A stretch of DNA of 23,039 nucleotides from the IMG/VR virus record IMGVR_UViG_3300033149_006550, positions 1 through 23,039 of that record, one strand, 5' to 3'. Numbering within the stretch: position 1 is the stretch's first letter; each line of letters begins with the position of its first letter. Below are positions 3,513 through 17,135 of the stretch, piece by piece. The notes under the pieces are model-generated. The model searched no databases, was not told where the DNA came from, and worked only from the letters and a program-made list of their open reading frames with translations. Source of the DNA: a virus. Position numbers and translations under genes: made by a program.

Positions 3513-5093
3513 ATGATAAATTTTACTTATTTACGACAGCCTCCAAAAAGATATACATTTGAAATGCCTAAATTAAGACAATGGATTGAATTTTGGTGTG
3601 AGGGAAAAGTATTGAATCTTTTTGCTGGGAAAACATTTTTAAATGTTGATGAGGTTAGAGTGGATATTAATGTAGAAATGAATGCAGATTATTATATGGA
3701 TGCTTATTCTTTTGTTAGTATGTGGATACAAGAAAGAAAAGCTAAATTTGGAACGATTATTATGGATCCGCCTTATTGTTATTCAGAAGATACTGATGTT
3801 TTTACTGATAAAGGATGGAAGGAAATAAAAGATATAGTAGATAATAGATTAGATTATAAAGTAGCTACTTTAAATCCGCTTACAAATGAATTAGAGTTTC
3901 ATAATATAATAAATTATTATAAATATAAATATGAAGGAGAAATGATTCATTTTAAACAGAGGAATGTGGAATTAAAGGTCACTCCAAATCATAAATTATG
4001 GTGTAGAAAACAATGGTATACACATAAGTTTAAGTTTACAGAAGCTTCAAGTGTGAGTCAAGGAATCACTTTTCAAAAAAATTGTGGGTGGAAAGGAATT
4101 AATAAAAGATTTTTTCTTTTGCCTAAAGTTGATTTTGTTAGAGCAAATAGATATGGAAAGAAATTTGCAGAAGAAAAAAAGATTGATATGAAAGATTGGT
4201 TGAGATTTTTTGGGATATGGATAGCAGAAGGGTCTTTAGGTAATAAAATCAAAAAGAATAGAAAAATGGCTTCTGAATTTAAAGTTACTATTACACAAAA
4301 AAAAATAGAGAATAGGAAAATAATAGAACGGTGGTTGGATAAACTTCCATTTCACTATTATAAAGATGGAATTGATTATCGTATATGGGATAAACAATTA
4401 TATACTTATTTATTTAAGTTTGGGAAAAGTAAACAAAGATATATTCCAGAAGATATTAAAAATTTAAGTTCTGATTTGTTGGGATATTTAATAGAAGGAT
4501 TAATGTTGGGAGATGGTTGTATATATAAAGAGGAAAAGTGTAAGAATGGTAAAATATATCGGTCTATACGTAAATCTTATTCTACTGCTTCAAAGAGATT
4601 GGCTAATGATTTTAATGAAATTATATTAAAAACTGGTAAATCTTGTACTATTTTTAAACAGGATAAAAATGGAGTATTTAATATTAGTATAATTGGTAGA
4701 AATAATTTTCCGACAATACCAACTATTAGAATGAATTATCAAAAAAAATTATATATGTATAAAGGATTTGTTTATTGTATTGAAGTTCCCAATAATATTT
4801 TATATGTTAGAACTAAAGGAAAAAATCAGAGTGTATGGTGTGGGAATTCAATAAGAAAATCCAGAGAAAAATATGAAGGGAAGTATGTAGGAAATTTAAC
4901 TAAAATTAAAAATGCTTTACCTTCTATATTGAGAGATAAAGGTAGAATTATTAGTTTGGGATATGATAGCGTTGGTATGTCCAAAAGCAGAGGGTTCACA
5001 AAAATAGCTATTTGTTTGATATGTCATGGAGGAGATCATAATGATACTATTGGACTTATAGAACAGAAAGATGAAAGAAGATTTTTTCTATGA
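3513..5093 (+). CDS. DNA methyltransferase with in-frame LAGLIDADG intein
   Basis: A 526-residue precursor. Exteins are residues 1-88 and 446-526, which would splice to about 169 residues. The N-extein carries a Rossmann motif I (VLNLFAGKT, 33-41) and ends in DPPY (85-88), the catalytic motif IV of amino-methyltransferases. The C-extein continues with SIRKSREKYEG and then ISLGYDSVGMSKSRGF, as in small phage DNA adenine methylase-like proteins. The likely reaction is S-adenosylmethionine-dependent methylation of adenine (or N4-cytosine) in DNA; specificity is not readable. The ATG abuts the helicase stop codon, and the 3' end overlaps the next gene by ATGA. Splicing is required for a working enzyme because the intein splits the active site. 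Confidence 0.85.
   Translation: MINFTYLRQPPKRYTFEMPKLRQWIEFWCEGKVLNLFAGKTFLNVDEVRVDINVEMNADYYMDAYSFVSMWIQERKAKFGTIIMDPPYCYSEDTDVFTDKGWKEIKDIVDNRLDYKVATLNPLTNELEFHNIINYYKYKYEGEMIHFKQRNVELKVTPNHKLWCRKQWYTHKFKFTEASSVSQGITFQKNCGWKGINKRFFLLPKVDFVRANRYGKKFAEEKKIDMKDWLRFFGIWIAEGSLGNKIKKNRKMASEFKVTITQKKIENRKIIERWLDKLPFHYYKDGIDYRIWDKQLYTYLFKFGKSKQRYIPEDIKNLSSDLLGYLIEGLMLGDGCIYKEEKCKNGKIYRSIRKSYSTASKRLANDFNEIILKTGKSCTIFKQDKNGVFNISIIGRNNFPTIPTIRMNYQKKLYMYKGFVYCIEVPNNILYVRTKGKNQSVWCGNSIRKSREKYEGKYVGNLTKIKNALPSILRDKGRIISLGYDSVGMSKSRGFTKIAICLICHGGDHNDTIGLIEQKDERRFFL
3777..4847 (+). mobile_element. LAGLIDADG intein inside the methyltransferase
   Basis: A 357-residue intein (precursor residues 89-445). Block A starts with Cys89 (CYSEDTDVFTDKGWKEI). 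Block B is VELKVTPNHKLW, with the usual TxxH. Two LAGLIDADG-type motifs are present, FFGIWIAEGSLG and YLIEGLMLGDGC, both keeping an acidic residue, so the homing endonuclease is probably active. Block F is VYCIEVPNNILYVR, and the end is WCGN followed by Ser446 as the +1 nucleophile. The penultimate residue is Gly rather than His, a form I recall from other phage inteins ending WCGN or WSGN. The insertion sits exactly after DPPY, a conserved active-site position typical of inteins. The element is about twice as long as its host protein. Confidence 0.9.
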
Positions 5094-7428: not shown

Positions 7429-7680
7429 ATGACAGAAAAGAAGAAATCGGGCAGACCTAAAAAACCAGTAGAAAAAAAGGCGAGGCCTATAACAATAGCT
7501 TTATATGAGGAAGATTTAGCAAGGATTAAATTTTTAAAAGGAGTTTGTGATTGTGATTGTACTTCTCTTTTGATAAGATATGCTTTAAGATTAGTTGAAG
7601 AAACTTTTGTAGAGACTGAAATGGAAAAAGCAAAAGAATTTCAAGAAGAAGGAGGGAGGAATTGTGCTTACGATAACTGA
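7429..7680 (+). CDS. ribbon-helix-helix DNA-binding protein with AT-hook-like tail
   Basis: An 83-residue protein. The basic N-terminus KKSGRPKKP looks like an AT-hook (GRP core in basic residues). Residues ~20-58 (ARPITIALYEEDLARIKFL, then TSLLIRYALRLVEE) fit a CopG/Arc-type ribbon-helix-helix domain: one beta strand followed by two helices. ATG 7429 has AAGGAGA just upstream. The gene overlaps the HNH-QueD gene by 17 bases, so the two are likely co-translated. A role as regulator of the modification operon, or as a DNA-architecture protein, is inferred from position. The fold call is moderate because the family is short and diverse. Confidence 0.65.
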   Translation: MTEKKKSGRPKKPVEKKARPITIALYEEDLARIKFLKGVCDCDCTSLLIRYALRLVEETFVETEMEKAKEFQEEGGRNCAYDN

Positions 7681-8749
7681 TGGTAAAACATGTCCTATAT
7701 GTAAGAAAATTTATAAAAATATTATTTTTCATATTAAGAGAAAACATCCTGAATATATGGACAAGATTTATTCTGATATTAATTCTTTTTATGATAGCAA
7801 TTTATATGTTAAAGAAATATATGTTAAATTGATAAAAGATAATCCTGTATATGAGAATATTATTTCTGAATATATGATAAGTAAAATTTATAAACGAAGA
7901 GGAAAATTTAATAGGGAACGAAGTAATAGAATTTTTTCTATTAGAAGAAAAGGGGAAAATAATACAGCAAAAAAGAAAGAAGTTAAGGAAAAAATAAAAA
8001 AAACTGTAACTAATTTATGGAAAGAAGGAAAATATAAAGATAGAATTAATGGTATGTTAGGAAGAAGTAAAGAATTATCTTTGAGATATAAACCAGAAAA
8101 GCATACTCCACTTTATCTTGCAGAACATGATTGTGTAAAATTTCTTTCTAATTTTCAAGATGTAAAGACGTGTAGTAGATGTGGAAGAAAAGATATAAAA
8201 ATGAATATACATCATATTGATGAGGATCATAGTAATTTTCTCATTTCTAATCTGGAGCCGTTATGTGTTCCATGTCATATGAGTTTTCATTATGGACATA
8301 GTAAAAGGGAATATTTGACTATAGTTAAATCTTTTAATCTTGATATTGCTCATTTTCTTCCTACTTCACATTATATAGGTAGATGTAATGCTTTTCATGG
8401 GCATCGACTAAAATGTGAAGTAGGGGTAAAGAAAAGAGTAGATAAAAATACTGGAATGGTATTGGATTTTAAGATTTTAAAAGAAATAATAAATGGGTTT
8501 ATTATAGATTCTTTAGATCATTCATTACTCAATGATTTTTTGGAGAATCCAACTTCTGAAAATCTTTGTGTATGGATGTGGGAAAAATTAATGTTTGATG
8601 CTCTTTTGAAAGGAATAGAATATATAAGAATATGGGAAACAGATTCTTCTTTTACTACTTTAGATAAAGGAGGAATGTTGTCTATGTTTAAAACTAATAT
8701 TGAAGATTATTTATTGAAATTTTCTGAGGATAAAAATGAAAATATCTAG
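7664..8749 (+). CDS. queD: HNH endonuclease fused to QueD (6-carboxytetrahydropterin synthase)
   Basis: A 361-residue multidomain protein, GTG start (GGAGGGAGG just upstream). It opens with a C2H2-like finger (C10, C13, H23, H28). Next comes a NUMOD3-like segment (~95-125, GENNTAKKKEV then LWKEGKY). An HNH domain follows: CSRC (170-173), NIHHID with H183/H184, N196, and CVPCH (201-205). From about 218 the protein is QueD: zinc ligands H230, H245 and H247, catalytic Cys241 in CNAFHGH, GMVLDF (264-269), LDH (284-286), PTSEN (296-300) and E325. QueD converts dihydroneopterin triphosphate to 6-carboxytetrahydropterin, step two of 7-deazaguanine synthesis. All QueD catalytic residues are present, so it should be active. 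The nuclease domains are typical of homing endonucleases, making this an unusual in-frame fusion. It overlaps queE by 14 bases. Confidence 0.87.
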   Translation: MLTITDGKTCPICKKIYKNIIFHIKRKHPEYMDKIYSDINSFYDSNLYVKEIYVKLIKDNPVYENIISEYMISKIYKRRGKFNRERSNRIFSIRRKGENNTAKKKEVKEKIKKTVTNLWKEGKYKDRINGMLGRSKELSLRYKPEKHTPLYLAEHDCVKFLSNFQDVKTCSRCGRKDIKMNIHHIDEDHSNFLISNLEPLCVPCHMSFHYGHSKREYLTIVKSFNLDIAHFLPTSHYIGRCNAFHGHRLKCEVGVKKRVDKNTGMVLDFKILKEIINGFIIDSLDHSLLNDFLENPTSENLCVWMWEKLMFDALLKGIEYIRIWETDSSFTTLDKGGMLSMFKTNIEDYLLKFSEDKNENI

Positions 8750-9395
8750 TATTTATAAAACAATTAGTGGAGAAGTTCCTTACCAAGGGTTTCCTTGTAT
8801 AATAGTAAGATTTTTTGGGTGTAAAAGAAAGTGTAATTATTGTGATTCTAAATTTGCATGGGAAGATTCTTCAAATTCTTGTTATTATGATCCTAGTGGT
8901 ATTTTAGAAGAGGTGCAGAATTTAGATAGAGATAAGAAATGTATTGTTCTGCTTACAGGTGGAGAACCTTTGGAGCAATCTAAAAAAGAGATGTTAAAGT
9001 TGTTTAGATATTTAAGAAAAAGGAAAGTTTTGCTTGAGACAAATGGTTTGGAAGATATTGAATGGGTTCCTGATTATGTTAAAATAGTTATGGATTTAAA
9101 ATTACCTTTTTCGGGATATGATTTTAGACGTACTCCAGTTACAGGTAAAAATTTTAAGAATTTAAAGAAGGAAGATTGGATAAAATTTGTGATTTCAGAT
9201 AGGGAAGAATATTTAATAGCAAAAAATTTCTGTTCTTTTTTGATAGGTAATATTGCTTTTAGTCCGTGTATTCCTTTATTAGAACCTTTTGTTTTGGCTG
9301 AATGGATGTTAGAAGATAATCTTTATGAAATTGTTTATAATTTACAGATTCATAAATTTATTTTTCCAGATTGGAAAGAAAATGAGGAAAGATAA
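8736..9395 (+). CDS. queE: QueE, 7-carboxy-7-deazaguanine synthase (radical SAM)
   Basis: A 219-residue radical S-adenosylmethionine enzyme that contracts 6-carboxytetrahydropterin to 7-carboxy-7-deazaguanine. The 4Fe-4S cluster cysteines are C29, C33 and C36 in GCKRKCNYCDS, a Cx3Cx2C pattern. SGEVPYQGFP precedes it, where QueE has SxQGEG...G, and TGGEP lies at 74-78. The end carries LQIHKF, matching the QueE tail QxHK. Length is normal for the family (~210-245). It starts 14 bases inside the end of the QueD gene with TGAGGA upstream, so the two consecutive pathway steps are translationally coupled. Confidence 0.9.
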   Translation: MKISSIYKTISGEVPYQGFPCIIVRFFGCKRKCNYCDSKFAWEDSSNSCYYDPSGILEEVQNLDRDKKCIVLLTGGEPLEQSKKEMLKLFRYLRKRKVLLETNGLEDIEWVPDYVKIVMDLKLPFSGYDFRRTPVTGKNFKNLKKEDWIKFVISDREEYLIAKNFCSFLIGNIAFSPCIPLLEPFVLAEWMLEDNLYEIVYNLQIHKFIFPDWKENEER

Positions 9396-9400
9396 GATAA

Positions 9401-10006
9401 ATGGCAGTTAGACCAACTATTTATAAATTGAAAAGATATGCAAAATTATTGAAAATTAGCTATGATGAAGATATAGAATATAAAGAATTGGAAAAAAAAG
9501 TATTAGATGCCATTGAAGATTGGGAAGATGTAACTACTTTATCTTATATTTTAATGGCTTATTATAATACTCATCCTTTAGTTTGTGGTGTTGAGTTTGA
9601 AGGTGATGAAGGAATAGGGGATTCACCAGAAGATGTAGAGAGAATTATAGAAAAAGAACAAGATATTGGGAAAGAAATGCTTTCTATAGATAGAAATCTT
9701 TTTATTTCTTTAAGAAAAGCTGAGAGATTAGAAAGAGAAGAAAAGATTAGGAAAAGATTGAAAGGAAAAACTATTTTTGGTCATGGTTTACTTTCTGAGG
9801 GAGGAAGAATAGATGAATTAATATATAAAAGGGGGGTTAGAAGAATTAGTGATTTGATGAGAATAACAGGACTTTCAAGGGAAAGAGTTATGAGACATCT
9901 TCGTCATTTAGCATATAAACATGAGTGTATTATTGAAATAGATAAGGAAGATTTTTTTCCTTACAAGAAGAAAGATAAAATTAAAAATATTAAATTTCCA
10001 TTTTAA
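9401..10006 (+). CDS. unknown protein with C-terminal winged-helix/HTH
   Basis: A 201-residue protein I cannot place in a family. The N-terminal half is helical and acidic, with a charged stretch at ~85-120. Residues ~145-180 (RRISDLMRITGLSRERVMRH followed by LRHLAYKHECIIEID) look like a winged-helix domain of the IclR/Rrf2 or DnaD-like sort, with the recognition helix at GLSRERVMRHL. The Lys-rich tail (KKKDKIKNIKF) could contact DNA. It sits between queE and folE, so it may regulate the modification operon, or guide a modification enzyme to DNA; neither is shown by the sequence. Confidence 0.6.
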   Translation: MAVRPTIYKLKRYAKLLKISYDEDIEYKELEKKVLDAIEDWEDVTTLSYILMAYYNTHPLVCGVEFEGDEGIGDSPEDVERIIEKEQDIGKEMLSIDRNLFISLRKAERLEREEKIRKRLKGKTIFGHGLLSEGGRIDELIYKRGVRRISDLMRITGLSRERVMRHLRHLAYKHECIIEIDKEDFFPYKKKDKIKNIKFPF

Positions 10007-10019
10007 AGGAGGGGATATT

Positions 10020-10565
10020 ATGAAAGAATATTTAAAAAAATGGTTGAGATTTATAGGGGAAGACCCAGAAAGAGAAGGTCTTAAAGATACCCCTCAACGA
10101 ATGATGGACTCATGGAAAGAATTATATGGGGGATATAAAGAGGATCCAAAAGATTTATTTGTAGTATGGGAAGAAGGGAAAGATAGTAGTTTAGTTTTAT
10201 TAAAAAACATTTCTTTTGCGAGTACTTGTGAACACCACTGTATGCCTTTTTTTGGGAAAGCTCATATAGCATATATTCCCAATGGAAGGGTGATTGGGAT
10301 AAGCAAATTAGCTAGGTTATTAAAAATTTATACACGTAGACTTCAGATTCAAGAGAGGATTGGAGAGCAAGTTGTGGGAGATTTAATGAAATATTTGAAA
10401 CCTAAAGGTGCTGCATGTATTCTGGAGGCTACACATTTATGTATGAAAGGAAGAGGAGTTAAAATAGAAAATGCTTCTATGATTACAAGTGCTTTGGGGG
10501 GGTGCTTCCTTGAAGATTTTGCCTGTAGACAGGAGCTAATGATTTTAATTAATGGAGGGAAATAA
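10020..10565 (+). CDS. folE: GTP cyclohydrolase I (FolE)
   Basis: A 181-residue enzyme converting GTP to dihydroneopterin triphosphate, the first step of pterin and 7-deazaguanine synthesis. Zinc ligands are C70 and H73 in TCEHHCMPF and C141 in HLCMKGRGV; catalytic H72 and H139 are also present. IGISKLARL and QIQERIGEQV, both hallmarks of the family, follow. It is a core-length FolE without the N-terminal extension of mammalian enzymes. The ATG has a strong AAAGGAGGGG site. In a phage carrying QueD, QueE and a DpdA homologue, its job is most likely to boost precursor supply for DNA modification rather than folate. Confidence 0.93.
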   Translation: MKEYLKKWLRFIGEDPEREGLKDTPQRMMDSWKELYGGYKEDPKDLFVVWEEGKDSSLVLLKNISFASTCEHHCMPFFGKAHIAYIPNGRVIGISKLARLLKIYTRRLQIQERIGEQVVGDLMKYLKPKGAACILEATHLCMKGRGVKIENASMITSALGGCFLEDFACRQELMILINGGK

Positions 10566-10918
10566 TGAATTTTTATATTAGTAAAAGATTATTAATTATT
10601 ACATCTTCTTTTGTGGCGACTCATTCATGGGACGATGCGGTTGATTTTTTAAAAAATGAGCACAGACATACATTTTATATAAGAGTTGAAATGTTAGTTA
10701 AGCATAATGATAGAGAAAAAGAATTCATAAAGGAAAAAAAGAAATTAGAGTATCATTTAAAGCGAAAATATGAAGGAAAATTTTTAAAAAATATATCATG
10801 TGAGATGATAGCAGAAGAGATTTTGGATCGTTTTTTTTATTATACCGCTGTAGAATGTTGGGAAGATAGAGAAAACGGAGCAAGATTAGAAAAAGAATTT
10901 ACAATGGGAGGGGATTAA
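10565..10918 (+). CDS. QueD-like T-fold protein lacking the catalytic cysteine
   Basis: A 117-residue protein whose pattern matches the PTPS/QueD T-fold. FVATH (H20) and EHRHTFYIRVE (H33, H35) line up with the three zinc histidines of QueD (FxAAH and HGH). ISCEMIAEEI (77-86) lines up with PTSExLAxWI, and ECWEDRENGA (97-106) with the KETxxxG region that holds the pterin-anchoring Glu. Three things are missing: the Cys four residues before HRH, the LDH motif, and the DF before the central helix. So zinc and base binding are plausible but the QueD reaction is not. It overlaps folE by one base and precedes the glycosyltransferase, inside the deazaguanine cluster. I infer a reshaped active site working on CDG or a related base. 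The fold call is by eye and needs a structure prediction. Confidence 0.6.
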   Translation: MNFYISKRLLIITSSFVATHSWDDAVDFLKNEHRHTFYIRVEMLVKHNDREKEFIKEKKKLEYHLKRKYEGKFLKNISCEMIAEEILDRFFYYTAVECWEDRENGARLEKEFTMGGD

Positions 10919-10919
10919 A

Positions 10920-11927
10920 ATGATTATTTGGGGTTTGGAATTGGAACCACTTGAAATGAGGTATACAACACAACATGCAAAATGGATAAAAGAAGGGATG
11001 TGTAATAGTTTTATGCAATATTTTCCTATAAAAGGGGAAATATTAACAGAAAGTATAGAAGTAGGAGAATTTTTAGATGTTTTAGGAACTAATTATTGGA
11101 AAGCGAGTCAGCTTCAAAGAGTTATATCTTATATTGAAAATAAGACAATAATAAAAGGAGATATTTTATTTTTATTTGATATTTGGAATCCTGCTGTTAT
11201 TTCATTGGCTTATATACGAGATGCAATGGGAATTGATTTGAAATTTGTAGGTATGTGTCATGATGGGACATATGATGAATGGGATTTTACTACTCGTTGT
11301 GGGATGGAAGCATGGGGGGAAGCATTTGAAAATTCTATATTTTGGATTATGGATAAGATTTTTGTTGGAAGCCATTATCATAAAGAGTTGATTTGTAAAA
11401 AAAGATGTGTAAATCCAGATAAAATTATCGTAACTAGTTGGCCTTTTTTTCAAGAAGATCCTTTGGGAACACCAACAAAAAAGGAAAATATAGTTATATT
11501 TCCACATAGGTTGAATCCAGATAAAGCCCCAGAGAAATTTGATGAATTGGAAAGAAAATATAAAAAATCTAATTGGAAATTTATAAAAACACAAAATTTA
11601 GGATTAAGTAAGAAAGATTATTATGAATTATTAAATAAATCTAAAATAGCTGTTTCTTTTTCAAAGTTGGAATGCTTTGGTATAAGTATGAGAGAAGCTG
11701 TTTTAGCTGGATGTCTTCCTTTAGTTCCTAATAGATTGGCTTATTCTGAAACTTTCCCAACTTTATTTCAATATAAGGGAATAGATGATTTTTATGAGAA
11801 GATAGATCTCTTTATGAATAGTGATGGTTTTTATCAAACTGTTTTAGAGAATTTAAAAAAGAAGATATTGGAAAAAGGAAAGAAAGCTATTCCTTATATG
11901 ATTAAGGAGATTTTAAATATTGAATAA
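10920..11927 (+). CDS. GT4-type glycosyltransferase, queuosine-mannosyltransferase-like
   Basis: A 335-residue GT-B glycosyltransferase. The C-terminal half carries the GT4 EX7E signature ECFGISMRE (E251 and E259), which contacts the nucleotide-sugar donor. Around it, IFPHR (193-197), DKAPEKF (201-207), SKKDYYELL (230-238) and CLPLVPNRLAYSETFP resemble what I recall of tRNA-queuosine mannosyltransferase (QTMAN/GTDC1): PHRxxxDKxPExF, a DYFxxL segment and GCxPLxPxxLxYPExFP. The N-terminal half (MIIWGLELEPLE, then DILFLFDIWNP) fits an acceptor domain. There is no signal peptide or membrane helix, so it acts in the cytoplasm. It lies between the T-fold gene and the dpdA-like gene, suggesting the acceptor is a modified base or DNA; that is inference. 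A generic GT4 enzyme for a virion or host sugar is the alternative. Confidence 0.72.
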   Translation: MIIWGLELEPLEMRYTTQHAKWIKEGMCNSFMQYFPIKGEILTESIEVGEFLDVLGTNYWKASQLQRVISYIENKTIIKGDILFLFDIWNPAVISLAYIRDAMGIDLKFVGMCHDGTYDEWDFTTRCGMEAWGEAFENSIFWIMDKIFVGSHYHKELICKKRCVNPDKIIVTSWPFFQEDPLGTPTKKENIVIFPHRLNPDKAPEKFDELERKYKKSNWKFIKTQNLGLSKKDYYELLNKSKIAVSFSKLECFGISMREAVLAGCLPLVPNRLAYSETFPTLFQYKGIDDFYEKIDLFMNSDGFYQTVLENLKKKILEKGKKAIPYMIKEILNIE

Positions 11928-13074
11928 AGTTAATATAATGCTCGATAGTGGGGCACATTCTTATAGTAAACGTTTTTTTACCGTAGGAGCTTCGGATAAA
12001 TCACAATATGAATCATATGGGGTTGATATTCCTAAAGATTGGTCTTATGTTGATTCTGATGAATTTAAACACTATTTAAATGATTATATAGAATTTTGTA
12101 ATATTTTTAAAAATAAATTAGATTCTTATGTTTCTCTGGATATAATATATAATCCACAAAAGAGCTATGAAATTCAAAAGTATATGGAATCTTGTGGGTT
12201 AAATCCTCTACCAGTTTTTCATTATGGAGAGGATATTTCATGGCTAATAAAATATATGGAAGAAGGATATGCCTATATAGGAATATCTGGAGTGGGGCAA
12301 GGTATTTCTAAAACAGCGTACATAAAAAATTATGGAGATGAACTTTTTCAGATTGTATGCCCCCCTCCTCTTTATTTACCTTTGATTAAAACTCATGCTT
12401 TTTCAATTAATAATTGGGATGTAATAAATCGTTATCCTCTTTATAGTTGTGATGCAGTAACATCAGCAAGAACGAGTGGATTTGGTACTATTTTTTTTCC
12501 TAAATATGAAAAAGGTAATTGGAATTATTTAAAGTCCAAGAGGATTATGGTTTCTCTTTTGGCATTAAAAAGAGGGGGTATTCATTTTAAGAGATTGTCT
12601 GAAAAGGAACAAGGATTAATGAAGGAATTATTAACGAAAGAGGGATTTGAAATAGGAGAAAGTAAAATAGAAAATGGTAAAGAGATTTGTGTTAAAGAAG
12701 GGATTTGTAGTAGCTGTTATCAAAGGGATAGATGGAATGCTTTGGTATTCAATCGTGTAAGTAAGGTTCTTCCTTTTTGGAATCGTCAATGTGTTATAAA
12801 AAATAAACAATTTTTCTTTAAAGAAAACTTGACAAATATAAAGAATTTCTCTATATTAGAGAACAATAGGACTAAGTTGTACCTTTCACATTGGGCTGCA
12901 AATTATTTTAGTACTATATTTTATGAAATGGGAATTGAGAATAGACTTGTTTCTTATTTTTATATGAGATTTCAAGAAAAGTTAAATCAAGAAGAATGTA
13001 TATGTTTTATGAAGGAGTATTTAGAAAAAGGATATGTATCTTCTAAAAAAGAAAGGAGAAAAGATGATAAATAG
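11920..13074 (+). CDS. dpdA: DpdA-family DNA 7-deazaguanine transglycosylase
   Basis: A 384-residue member of the tRNA-guanine transglycosylase superfamily, DpdA-like. MLDSGAHS (D9) fits the TGT DSGGFQ acid/base Asp, YIGISGVG (119-126) the base-binding GG loop, and HAFSINN (from H159) with CDAVTSAR (177-184) the second-half HxxG and nucleophile region, D178 being the likely nucleophile. GICSSC (C263, C266) with C257 may be a reduced zinc site. DpdA enzymes replace guanine in DNA by a 7-deazaguanine base. The TTG at 11920 is chosen because AAGGAG lies at 11904-11909; the next ATG (11938) has no spaced site and would begin right at the active-site loop. It overlaps the glycosyltransferase by 8 bases and the clamp by 11. 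A tRNA substrate is possible but less likely given the operon. Confidence 0.78.
   Translation: MNKVNIMLDSGAHSYSKRFFTVGASDKSQYESYGVDIPKDWSYVDSDEFKHYLNDYIEFCNIFKNKLDSYVSLDIIYNPQKSYEIQKYMESCGLNPLPVFHYGEDISWLIKYMEEGYAYIGISGVGQGISKTAYIKNYGDELFQIVCPPPLYLPLIKTHAFSINNWDVINRYPLYSCDAVTSARTSGFGTIFFPKYEKGNWNYLKSKRIMVSLLALKRGGIHFKRLSEKEQGLMKELLTKEGFEIGESKIENGKEICVKEGICSSCYQRDRWNALVFNRVSKVLPFWNRQCVIKNKQFFFKENLTNIKNFSILENNRTKLYLSHWAANYFSTIFYEMGIENRLVSYFYMRFQEKLNQEECICFMKEYLEKGYVSSKKERRKDDK
12829..12857 (+). promoter_or_regulatory. internal promoter inside dpdA reading into the clamp gene
   Basis: TTGACA at 12829-12834, a 17-base spacer, then TATATT at 12852-12857. It lies within the dpdA-like coding region, about 205 bases before the clamp ATG. 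The fit to the housekeeping consensus equals the other two promoters here. It would let clamp and polymerase be expressed apart from the modification genes. Chance occurrence in A+T-rich DNA is possible, but the full -35, exact spacing and near-perfect -10 argue for use. Confidence 0.65.
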
Positions 13075-14095: not shown

Positions 14096-14443
14096 ATGTT
14101 TACTCAAACTCATGGGGCATGGGGAGAAAGGTTAAGAACATTTAGTTGGGATGGGGGAATTGTAACTCTTTTATTTTTAAAAGCTAATACTAGATGTTCT
14201 TGGCATTCTCATTCTAAAACTTGGAATAGATTTATTTGTGTAGCGGGGAGAATAGGTATTAAAACCGATAAAGGTTATTTAACTGAATTGCTTCCTAAGC
14301 AAATGTTTGAGGTAGAACCAGGAATTATACATGAATTTCAAGTTTATGAAGATAGTATTGTAGAAGAAATTGCATATACAAAATATTGTGAAGAAGATAT
14401 TTTTAGATTTAATAAAGGAGGGGTTTTGAATGTTATTGATTAA
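14096..14443 (+). CDS. cupin protein, phosphomannose-isomerase-like
   Basis: A 115-residue single-domain cupin. Motif 1 is SWHSHSKTWNRFICVAGRIG (metal ligands H37 and H39), motif 2 PGIIHEFQV (His 81). The end, EEIAYTKYCEEDIFRF, resembles the EVQxGxxxxEDDIVRF end of type II phosphomannose isomerase cupins, but no nucleotidyltransferase domain is present. A sugar-phosphate isomerase or metal-binding role is possible; substrate is unknown. Its ribosome site GAGGGG is only three bases from the ATG. It sits between clamp and polymerase genes, where metabolic genes are unexpected. Confidence 0.72.
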   Translation: MFTQTHGAWGERLRTFSWDGGIVTLLFLKANTRCSWHSHSKTWNRFICVAGRIGIKTDKGYLTELLPKQMFEVEPGIIHEFQVYEDSIVEEIAYTKYCEEDIFRFNKGGVLNVID

Positions 14444-14652: not shown

Positions 14653-15891
14653 TTGGAAAGAAAGAGGGGGTTTTTTCATAAAAGAGAGGAAGTTATTGTT
14701 CGTAAGAAAAAAGGAATTGGGTGTGAATTTTGTCCTTTAAATGGAAAATCAAATAGACTTGAACCATATGGATTGGGAAAGAAAAAAGTTCTTATTTGGG
14801 GGGAGTGTCCTGGAAAAACGGAGGATATGAAAAAAACCCCTTTTTGTGGGGAATGTGGTTCTTATTTTCGTAGTCTTTTTCATGATTTAGATTTTTATGA
14901 GGATTGTATTGTGGTAAATACTGTGGATTGTAGACCTTGGGAAGGAACTATATATAAAAAAAGGAATAGAAAACCTACTAATAAAGAAATAGAATGTTGT
15001 TTTAAAAGGAAAAAAGATATTCTTAAAAAGGAAAAACCTAAATTTATTTTATTAGTAGGGGGGGTTGCTTTAAGTACTTTTTTAAAATATAAATTTAAGG
15101 AAAGAGGAGGATTAAATACTAATATATCTTCATGGAGAGGTAAATTAATTCCAGACCAAGAATTAAGAGCGTGGGTAATTCCTATATATCATCCAAGTTT
15201 TATTTTTCCTAGAGGAACAATTGGAGCAGAGCCATTTTTAAAAGATGATTTACGAAAGTTTGAATATATAGTTAATATGGAGAGACCTCCTAAGCCTATA
15301 GCAAAATGGAATATTAATTGGAGTACTAATATTGATGTAATAATAAATGAGATTGAAAAAATAGATAGCTCTTTTTGTTTTGATTATGAAACTTCTTGTC
15401 TTTCCCCAAAAAGGAAAGAGGATATAATATACGTTGTTTCTTTTTCAATAGATGGAAAATATGCTTTTGTTTTTCCTCTTGATAAAACAGATAAGGGAAA
15501 ACCATATTTTAATGAAAGGCAAAAAAGACAAATCAAAGAAGTATGGAAAAATAAATTGGAAGATAGTAATCTTCCAAAAGAAGCATGGAATATGAAATTT
15601 GAGAATAAATGGTCGAATCATATTGGAATTAAAGTTAATAATTGGGATTGGGATGGAATGATAGGGGCTCATATTTTGGATTCTTCTCATGGGACTAAAT
15701 CATTGAAAATTCAGGCATATATTAATTATGGAATAATATATGGGGAAGATATTTCTTCATATATGGGAATGTCCAGAGGAAAAAATAGAATGGATAACCT
15801 TTCTTTAGAAAAAATATGTACTTATTGTGGAATGGATAGTATTTTTACTAAAAGAATAAATAATAAACAAAAAAGGATTTTTTGTGTATGA
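14653..15891 (+). CDS. UDG-like plus 3'-5' exonuclease part of family A DNA polymerase
   Basis: A 412-residue protein with two domains. Residues ~20-215 are a uracil-DNA-glycosylase-superfamily domain (family 4-like): CEFC (24-27), GECPGKTEDMKKTPFCG (50-66), DCRPWEG (C93), C115/C116 and HPS (180-182). The cysteines could hold a 4Fe-4S cluster. Residues ~235-412 are a DEDDy proofreading exonuclease: Exo I DYET (244-247), Exo II NMKFE (323-327) where Asp is usual, and Exo III YCGMD (401-405). SPO1-type phage polymerases carry a similar UDG-like domain fused to exo and pol. Here the protein stops at the exo/pol boundary and the pol domain is the next gene, overlapping by ATGA. TTG 14653 follows AAAGGA by about nine bases. 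Confidence 0.85.
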   Translation: MERKRGFFHKREEVIVRKKKGIGCEFCPLNGKSNRLEPYGLGKKKVLIWGECPGKTEDMKKTPFCGECGSYFRSLFHDLDFYEDCIVVNTVDCRPWEGTIYKKRNRKPTNKEIECCFKRKKDILKKEKPKFILLVGGVALSTFLKYKFKERGGLNTNISSWRGKLIPDQELRAWVIPIYHPSFIFPRGTIGAEPFLKDDLRKFEYIVNMERPPKPIAKWNINWSTNIDVIINEIEKIDSSFCFDYETSCLSPKRKEDIIYVVSFSIDGKYAFVFPLDKTDKGKPYFNERQKRQIKEVWKNKLEDSNLPKEAWNMKFENKWSNHIGIKVNNWDWDGMIGAHILDSSHGTKSLKIQAYINYGIIYGEDISSYMGMSRGKNRMDNLSLEKICTYCGMDSIFTKRINNKQKRIFCV

Positions 15892-17135
15892 ATTCTTTAA
15901 AGGATGCATATCAATTATTTCATGATGGGGTTCTTGCTCTTTCTACTATGGAAGATAGGGGTATTTGTATAGATGTTCCATTGTTGTATCAAATGGAGAA
16001 AGAATGTAATGAAGGGATAATAAGATTAAATAGAGAAATCCGAGATACAAAAGAAGCTAAATTATTTGAAAAAATTAATAGAAAAAGAATAGATGTAAAT
16101 TCAGATAAGGATTTATATTCTCTTTTATATGATGTTCTTAAAATGCCTGTTATTAAAACAACAGATAAGGGAAATTATTCTATTGATGCTTATGTATTAG
16201 GAGAATATTCTAAAGATGGGGTGGAAATTGCTGAAAAGATTATGGAATTAAGAAAGATAGAAAAAACTAAAAATACTTATCTTGCTCAAATAAAAAGGTA
16301 TATATATAAGGGAAAGGTTCATCCAGAATTTCATTTACATTTTGTTGTTACCTACAGATCATCCTCTTCCTCGCCAAATCTGCAAAATATTCCCAAGAGA
16401 GATGAAGAGATGGGAAAAATTAGAAGATTATTTATACCAACTGAAGGAAATATTTTGGGATCTGTAGATTATGGGGGGATAGAAGTTAGAGTAATAGCTT
16501 GCTTATCAAAAGATTCAGTTTTATGTGAAGAATTATGGAATGGGGATGATATTCATGGGGTATGGGCTAATATGTTATTCAATGTTGATGATTCCCATCC
16601 AGATTGGAAATCTAAATTTAGATACAATGCAAAAAATAAATTTGTATTTCCTTTATTTTATGGAAGTTATTATAAATCTTGTGCATTAAATCTTAATTTA
16701 CCAATTAGGCATGTCCAAAAGTGTGAAAAGGAATTTTGGAATAAATATAAGGGAGTGAAGAAATGGATAGATAATTCTTTGTCTAATTATCAACAAAATG
16801 GTTATGTTAATTATCCATTTGGGTTTTGTAGAAGAGGGTATATTGACAGAAATCAAATAATAAATACGCCAGTTCAAGGGACTGCTTTTCATATGCTTTT
16901 ATGGTCAATTGTTCAAGAATATAAAACTTGTAAATGGGAAAATAGTTGGGCTATAGGAGAGATTCATGATGAAATTATATTTGATATTAATCCAAAAGAA
17001 AAAAATAAATTAGAAAAGGAAGTTTCTTCTATCATGTGTGATAAAATTAGAGAGGAAAATCCTTGGATTATAGTGCCATTAATTGTTGAATGGGAGTTTG
17101 GAAAAAATTTAGGAGAAATGAAAGAAAACACTTGA
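15888..17135 (+). CDS. family A DNA polymerase, polymerase domain
   Basis: 415 residues holding thumb, fingers and palm. Motif A is DYGGIEVR (184-191), in place of DYSQIELR. Motif B is RYNAKNKFVFPLFYG (245-259), with R245, K249 and Y258-G259 but one residue longer than the E. coli Pol I O-helix spacing. Motif C is HDE (360-362). SSSSPNLQNIP precedes motif A, as in Pol I. With the upstream UDG/exo gene it forms a complete replicative polymerase in two chains. ATG 15888 overlaps the previous stop; AGGA lies at 15874-15877. The reading frame is open a little further upstream, in the -1 frame relative to the first gene. Confidence 0.92.
   Translation: MNSLKDAYQLFHDGVLALSTMEDRGICIDVPLLYQMEKECNEGIIRLNREIRDTKEAKLFEKINRKRIDVNSDKDLYSLLYDVLKMPVIKTTDKGNYSIDAYVLGEYSKDGVEIAEKIMELRKIEKTKNTYLAQIKRYIYKGKVHPEFHLHFVVTYRSSSSSPNLQNIPKRDEEMGKIRRLFIPTEGNILGSVDYGGIEVRVIACLSKDSVLCEELWNGDDIHGVWANMLFNVDDSHPDWKSKFRYNAKNKFVFPLFYGSYYKSCALNLNLPIRHVQKCEKEFWNKYKGVKKWIDNSLSNYQQNGYVNYPFGFCRRGYIDRNQIINTPVQGTAFHMLLWSIVQEYKTCKWENSWAIGEIHDEIIFDINPKEKNKLEKEVSSIMCDKIREENPWIIVPLIVEWEFGKNLGEMKENT

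Follow-up and report, generated by a model that had tools for sequence, protein, structure and literature searches.

A QTMAN-related glycosyltransferase is linked to 7-deazaguanine genes in many phages and is predicted to glycosylate a modified base in phage DNA

A glycosyltransferase gene within a run of deazaguanine genes

The window analysed here is an entire 23-kb virus record (23,039 nt), and all positions are counted along it. It contains a run of genes on the plus strand, in which a glycosyltransferase gene (hereafter GT) is enclosed by genes of 7-deazaguanine synthesis and insertion:

7664..8749, plus strand: QueD, with a PTPS domain at residues 219-334 (PF01242, E 2.7e-27) and an N-terminal HNH/zinc-finger region (PF01844, E 2.9e-4)
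8736..9395, plus strand: QueE, 7-carboxy-7-deazaguanine synthase, radical SAM (phrog_2076, E 1.1e-27; TIGR04349, E 5.8e-36)
9401..10006, plus strand: HTH-type protein inside the cluster (family matches)
10020..10565, plus strand: FolE, GTP cyclohydrolase I, the first step of deazaguanine synthesis (PF01227, E 1.9e-63)
10565..10918, plus strand: QueD-like T-fold protein (family matches, model, conserved residues)
10920..11927, plus strand: GT4-type GT-B glycosyltransferase of a QTMAN sister family, predicted 7-deazaguanine glycosyltransferase (Pfam, model, profile search, tree)
11920..13074 (start at TTG 11920 or ATG 11938), plus strand: DpdA-like DNA guanine transglycosylase with a DSGAHS motif (phrog_887, queuine tRNA-ribosyltransferase, E 1.1e-30)
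14096..14443, plus strand: small cupin, a possible accessory gene (homologues near QueE in 10/80 GT loci)

The gene order QueD-QueE-HTH-FolE-Tfold-GT-DpdA is interrupted by gaps of only -14 to +13 bases, which is consistent with a single operon; a 350-aa ORF and then the cupin gene lie 3' of the DpdA-like gene on the same strand. By tblastn the DpdA-like ORF also corresponds to DpdA of the phage 9g type (168 phage records). The window thus contains the components of a Dpd system, namely the base-synthesis genes FolE, QueD and QueE together with a DpdA/TGT-like transglycosylase. The sequence-only reading had placed GT inside a dpd cluster, and this placement holds, with QueD, QueE, FolE and the T-fold gene upstream and DpdA downstream. 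The T-fold stop codon ends at 10918 and GT starts at 10920, one base further on, as had been claimed, while the proposed 8-base overlap with the DpdA-like gene is likely rather than certain: it exists if translation starts at TTG 11920, which has AAGGAG upstream, and is lost with ATG 11938. Among the fetched loci, the HTH-type gene is present in the window's own record only.

Several other ORFs of the window have unusual architectures. The HNH/zinc-finger region and QueD share a single ORF (7664-8749), representing either a fusion or a homing-type insertion. A DNA methyltransferase ORF at 3513-5093 consists of two phage-methyltransferase stretches flanking a match to a thymidylate synthase PHROG (866 positions), and looks intein-interrupted. 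By eye, the ORFs 14653-15891 and 15882-17135 resemble a split polymerase, with a uracil-DNA glycosylase/exonuclease part and a DNA polymerase I part.

GT is a GT4-type protein with invariant motif residues

The GT ORF encodes 335 aa, uninterrupted from ATG to stop, with a GGAGG ribosome site ~8 bases 5' of the ATG. Taken by itself, the window GT has only generic, weak library matches (Pfam Glycos_transf_1, E 2.5e-5, slightly below the curated cut-off; phrog_4356, E 1.1e-6); Glycos_transf_1 is matched by 38 of 57 members of the GT family, at best with an E of 8e-12. An AlphaFold model built from a 53-sequence alignment (pLDDT 93) has a two-domain GT-B fold over its full length, and its best matches among solved structures (Z ~27) are MshA, BshA and sucrose-phosphate synthase, all retaining GT4 enzymes; superposition on MshA (3c4q) gives a Z of 27.5 and an rmsd of 3.2 over 318 residues. 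This confirms the identity of the ORF as a GT4-type, GT-B protein, far beyond chance. BshA and MshA, retaining GT4 enzymes with the GT-B fold, are 12-16% identical to the phage GT, and their acceptors are malate and inositol phosphate.

All the motifs picked out in the sequence-only reading are present (FPHR 194, DKAPEKF 201, DYYELL 233, GCLPLVPNRLAY 264 and ETFP 277), as is the EX7E motif (E251...E259). Across the 57 family members E259, R197, K202, K231 and Y234 are invariant, and position 251 is E in 39 and D in 18.

Linkage to deazaguanine genes across phages

In a search of viral contigs the window GT protein alone found nothing related, whereas a profile of six sequences retrieved GT relatives from at least 366 contigs. 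Cultured phages of six lineages (ACP17, Paride/PA5oct, Phosso, X1, BUCT-ZZ01 and PhiXhv-12) have relatives that are found with the single window sequence as query. After removal of obvious duplicates, 80 GT loci were compared and partners were counted within about 8 kb. The T-fold gene led these counts (70 loci), followed by DpdA/TGT-like (68), FolE (65), QueE (56) and QueD (24); among the 53 loci with long flanks on both sides, the counts were 50 for T-fold, 49 for DpdA/TGT-like, 45 for FolE and 40 for QueE. Almost all of the counted partner genes (295/296) lie on the GT strand.

As the loci were sampled by GT homology they are not independent draws, and the six cultured lineages make the cleanest sample. 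In whole-record searches FolE and a TGT-like gene were both present in 16/16 phages, these six lineages included, against a FolE background of 392/50,697 phage records (0.8%) at the threshold used. Co-occurrence with DpdA, on which the original proposal had been made to depend, is therefore near-universal, and the linkage is seen directly in hundreds of phages. Full-length QueC is absent from 15/16 of the whole phage records, only PhiXhv-12 having one.

A second TGT-like family, with longer proteins (motifs DSGGFQ and ISFD; phrog_10773 in several), is present in most GT loci, and the only PDB matches to its profile were TGT chains (E 0.003). The hhalign probability between this family and the window-type DpdA is only 8%, so the identification of each rests on separate matches.

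Phage DNA with deazaguanines has been described (PMC6884629), as has a deazaguanine system in PA5oct (PMC7824862). According to the outline in PMC6884629, phage and bacterial Dpd systems (DpdA, FolE, QueD, QueE) comprise the same base-synthesis genes and transglycosylase as the GT loci. Beyond these, GT loci add a glycosyltransferase and often sugar-nucleotide genes, and nearly all of those checked are without full-length QueC.

Two other families were noted at these loci. Proteins of ~177 aa with FxGxE and TLF motifs are encoded beside the T-fold, FolE or TGT-like gene in 46/80 (for example L001 7218-7700 and L089 6865-7404), with no Pfam match above cut-off. In Synechococcus phage BUCT-ZZ01 (L005 5992-7335) a second GT4-like ORF of 447 aa lies between FolE and the TGT-like gene.

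The closest family in cells is QTMAN

QTMAN (GTDC1), the tRNA-queuosine alpha-mannosyltransferase, modifies the Q base of tRNA with mannose (PMC12518689); the sequence-only reading had likened GT to it. We searched the GT family profile in 249 proteobacterial genomes, this being the phylum of Devosia. The sole true family member there is from Devosia (E 1.6e-111), and the next 20 matches are exactly the 20 QTMAN proteins (E 2e-20 to 5e-12), all of them falling on the C-terminal part of the QTMAN_N-bearing protein. The best GT4 that is neither QTMAN nor a member reaches an E of 9e-10; GT4 domains number in the hundreds in the first 100 of these genomes. In agreement with this, hhalign of phage GT against QTMAN gives a probability of 99.2% (E 1.2e-19, 281 columns, both domains), and in a tree of the C-terminal part the phage GTs join QTMAN as its sister with a support of 0.94. 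A sequence search found no solved structure of QTMAN. At the same time, none of the Pfam matches of the 57 GT members at E <= 0.01 is to QTMAN_N (PF12038), and a search of 10 phage records with this domain (E <= 1) gave no match either. The likeness to QTMAN thus stands as one to the nearest cellular family, while membership does not, and we regard the phage GT as a sister of QTMAN, nearest by profile, hhalign and tree yet unmatched by QTMAN_N.

Being the closest GT4 family, QTMAN offers an acceptor that is itself a 7-deazaguanine in nucleic acid (PMC12518689). It could be argued that GT, too, modifies tRNA queuosine, of host or phage, and so tunes translation, its adjacency to DpdA reflecting a shared deazaguanine supply. 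We consider this quite improbable, as full-length QueC is missing from 15 of the 16 phage records and the window's transglycosylase is of a kind known to act on DNA. Unlike QTMAN, the phage GT lacks QTMAN_N and is linked to DpdA and DNA genes, and a queuosine cyclopentenediol would not be expected as its acceptor.

It is very unlikely that GT is a common glycosyltransferase of surface polysaccharides or superinfection exclusion that only happens to adjoin deazaguanine genes. Its fold is the one widespread among GT4 enzymes, and sugar/glycosyltransferase clusters of cyanophages have been interpreted as polysaccharide genes in the account given in PMC7824862. Against this, the same deazaguanine linkage recurs on bacterial chromosomes as well as among unrelated phages. 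Best matches to capsule or lipopolysaccharide GT4 enzymes had been named as the outcome that would speak against the proposal; instead the nearest cellular matches are QTMAN in 20/20 cases, ahead of all other GT4s, with non-QTMAN GT4s scoring far below, and the tree agrees.

The T-fold partner and the sugar donor

The T-fold protein is the most constant partner of GT. Its model matches QueD/PTPS (Z 13), and the zinc-site histidines H20/H33/H35, E100 and an SCE motif are invariant. The catalytic Cys of QueD sits four residues before the HxH motif; the T-fold protein has Leu there, i.e. no QueD catalytic Cys. Homologues are found beside FolE in Cellulophaga, Rhizobium and Vibrio phages that are not among the window-GT matches, so the protein probably acts on the base before GT does. 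One candidate function that we considered is that of the 7-carboxy-7-deazaguanine decarboxylase named DpdL.

A nucleotide-sugar epimerase with GalE-type motifs is encoded in 37/80 GT loci, in most of which it directly adjoins GT or overlaps it. It is present in the loci of 15/18 members with Asp251 and 2/39 with Glu251 (Fisher p 4e-9, the difference coming largely from one clade). Asp in place of E251 of the EX7E motif in 18 of 57 members counts against a catalytic role, and would suit an altered GT4 that has lost sugar transfer and binds the base or DNA as a partner to DpdA. We give little credence to such a partner, given that E259, R197 and K202 are invariant and that the Asp-type members are the very ones with the epimerase, which suggests active sugar use.

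Other sugar genes occur in some loci: UDP-glucose/GDP-mannose dehydrogenase-like, heptose-type nucleotidyltransferase, and an ADH plus GFO/IDH pair. With a GalE-like UDP-sugar epimerase in many of the relatives, a sugar other than mannose could well be used, and the variety of sugar genes makes it likely that donor choice varies. The window has no recognised sugar-nucleotide gene and would rely on host donors or on genes outside the fragment.

In Xanthomonas phage PhiXhv-12 (L006 6618-10701) a GATase-QueC fusion, a PIG-L-type deacetylase, the GT homologue and a GFO/IDH oxidoreductase follow in series. This was considered as a surface-sugar locus, a candidate dropped in view of the GATase-QueC fusion, and because outside this locus the genome encodes FolE and gives a weaker TGT-like match; on the same grounds PhiXhv-12 is counted, with less confidence, as a deazaguanine phage.

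A proposed hypermodification pathway

Conversion of GTP to 7-carboxy-7-deazaguanine is established for the FolE, QueD and QueE families, and we suggest that FolE, QueD and QueE would carry it out here. The QueD-like T-fold protein, to judge by its near-constant linkage, probably reshapes this product. DpdA, from a family for which insertion into DNA is established, would then exchange guanine in phage DNA for the modified base. The GT4 enzyme, predicted to be a retaining one, may next use a nucleotide-sugar to place a sugar residue, probably a hexose, on the base, most likely on DNA. We infer sugar transfer to the base from the relation to QTMAN, the gene linkage and the adjacent epimerase. 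Against this step, no obvious hydroxyl acceptor is at hand: with full-length QueC in only 1/16 phage records, the base substituent may be a carboxylate or a product of the T-fold protein. In our judgement the best explanation of these observations, and a probable one, is that GT glycosylates a 7-deazaguanine that DpdA has placed in phage DNA, as the last enzyme of a hypermodification pathway. The interpretation of GT as a deazaguanine glycosyltransferase is supported at the level of family and pathway.

GT might instead glycosylate the free 7-deazaguanine base or nucleotide before DpdA acts, so that the sugar enters DNA with the base, but this seems unlikely to us. The T-fold and GT genes are close neighbours, which is compatible with base-level chemistry, and DpdA enzymes insert several different deazaguanines into DNA, as summarised in PMC6884629. 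On the other hand, the sister enzyme QTMAN mannosylates the Q base within tRNA (PMC12518689), and the alpha- and beta-glucosyltransferases of T4, likewise GT-B enzymes, are outlined in PMC13216743 as glycosylating a base of phage DNA that has already been replicated. The acceptor of the T4 enzymes is 5-hydroxymethylcytosine, and they are likened to the phage GT by fold and proposed reaction.

If GT acts on DNA, the bulk of the sugar would protect the phage genome against restriction enzymes and similar defences, a role that we propose by analogy with T4 (as outlined in PMC13216743) and with unsugared deazaguanines (as outlined in PMC6884629). Sugars on T4-type phage bases and 7-deazaguanines in DNA are known separately; in the literature searched, which covered deazaguanine phage DNA, cyanophage glycosyltransferase clusters and the T4 glucosyltransferases, we found no report joining a glycosyltransferase or sugar to deazaguanine DNA. 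The pathway, if true, would add a class of DNA hypermodification in many phages, including the cultured Pseudomonas phages Paride and PA5oct, and would account for unassigned glycosyltransferases beside deazaguanine genes.

The family in bacterial chromosomes

GT accompanied by a TGT-like gene is also present in Devosia, Aurantimonas, Azospirillum, one genome of the Rhizobiales and five contigs of Magnetospirillum; some of these chromosomal loci have T-fold and QueD genes as well. As phages with modified guanine carry a GT akin to a tRNA-deazaguanine mannosyltransferase, their DNA is probably sugar-decorated. We lean towards a broader reading, in which many phages and some bacterial chromosomes would have guanines replaced by glycosylated 7-deazaguanines through a QTMAN-related GT, with clade-specific sugars, some made by a phage GalE and some deacetylated by a PIG-L enzyme after transfer.

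No QueC match was found in Devosia and Aurantimonas. A Vut_1 gene adjoins GT in Devosia, Azospirillum and a Rhizobiales genome, directly upstream of it (L091 7438-7995, L093 7484-7981, L095 7465-7998), and members of this YhhQ family also occur in 10 viral loci; Vut_1 is the family of the preQ0 transporter YhhQ (PMC5372724). The Magnetospirillum loci (L096-L100, about 7971-12053) carry GT, T-fold, TGT-like and QueD genes, and in one of them (L097) an ORF that by eye is integrase-like lies a few kb from the GT locus.
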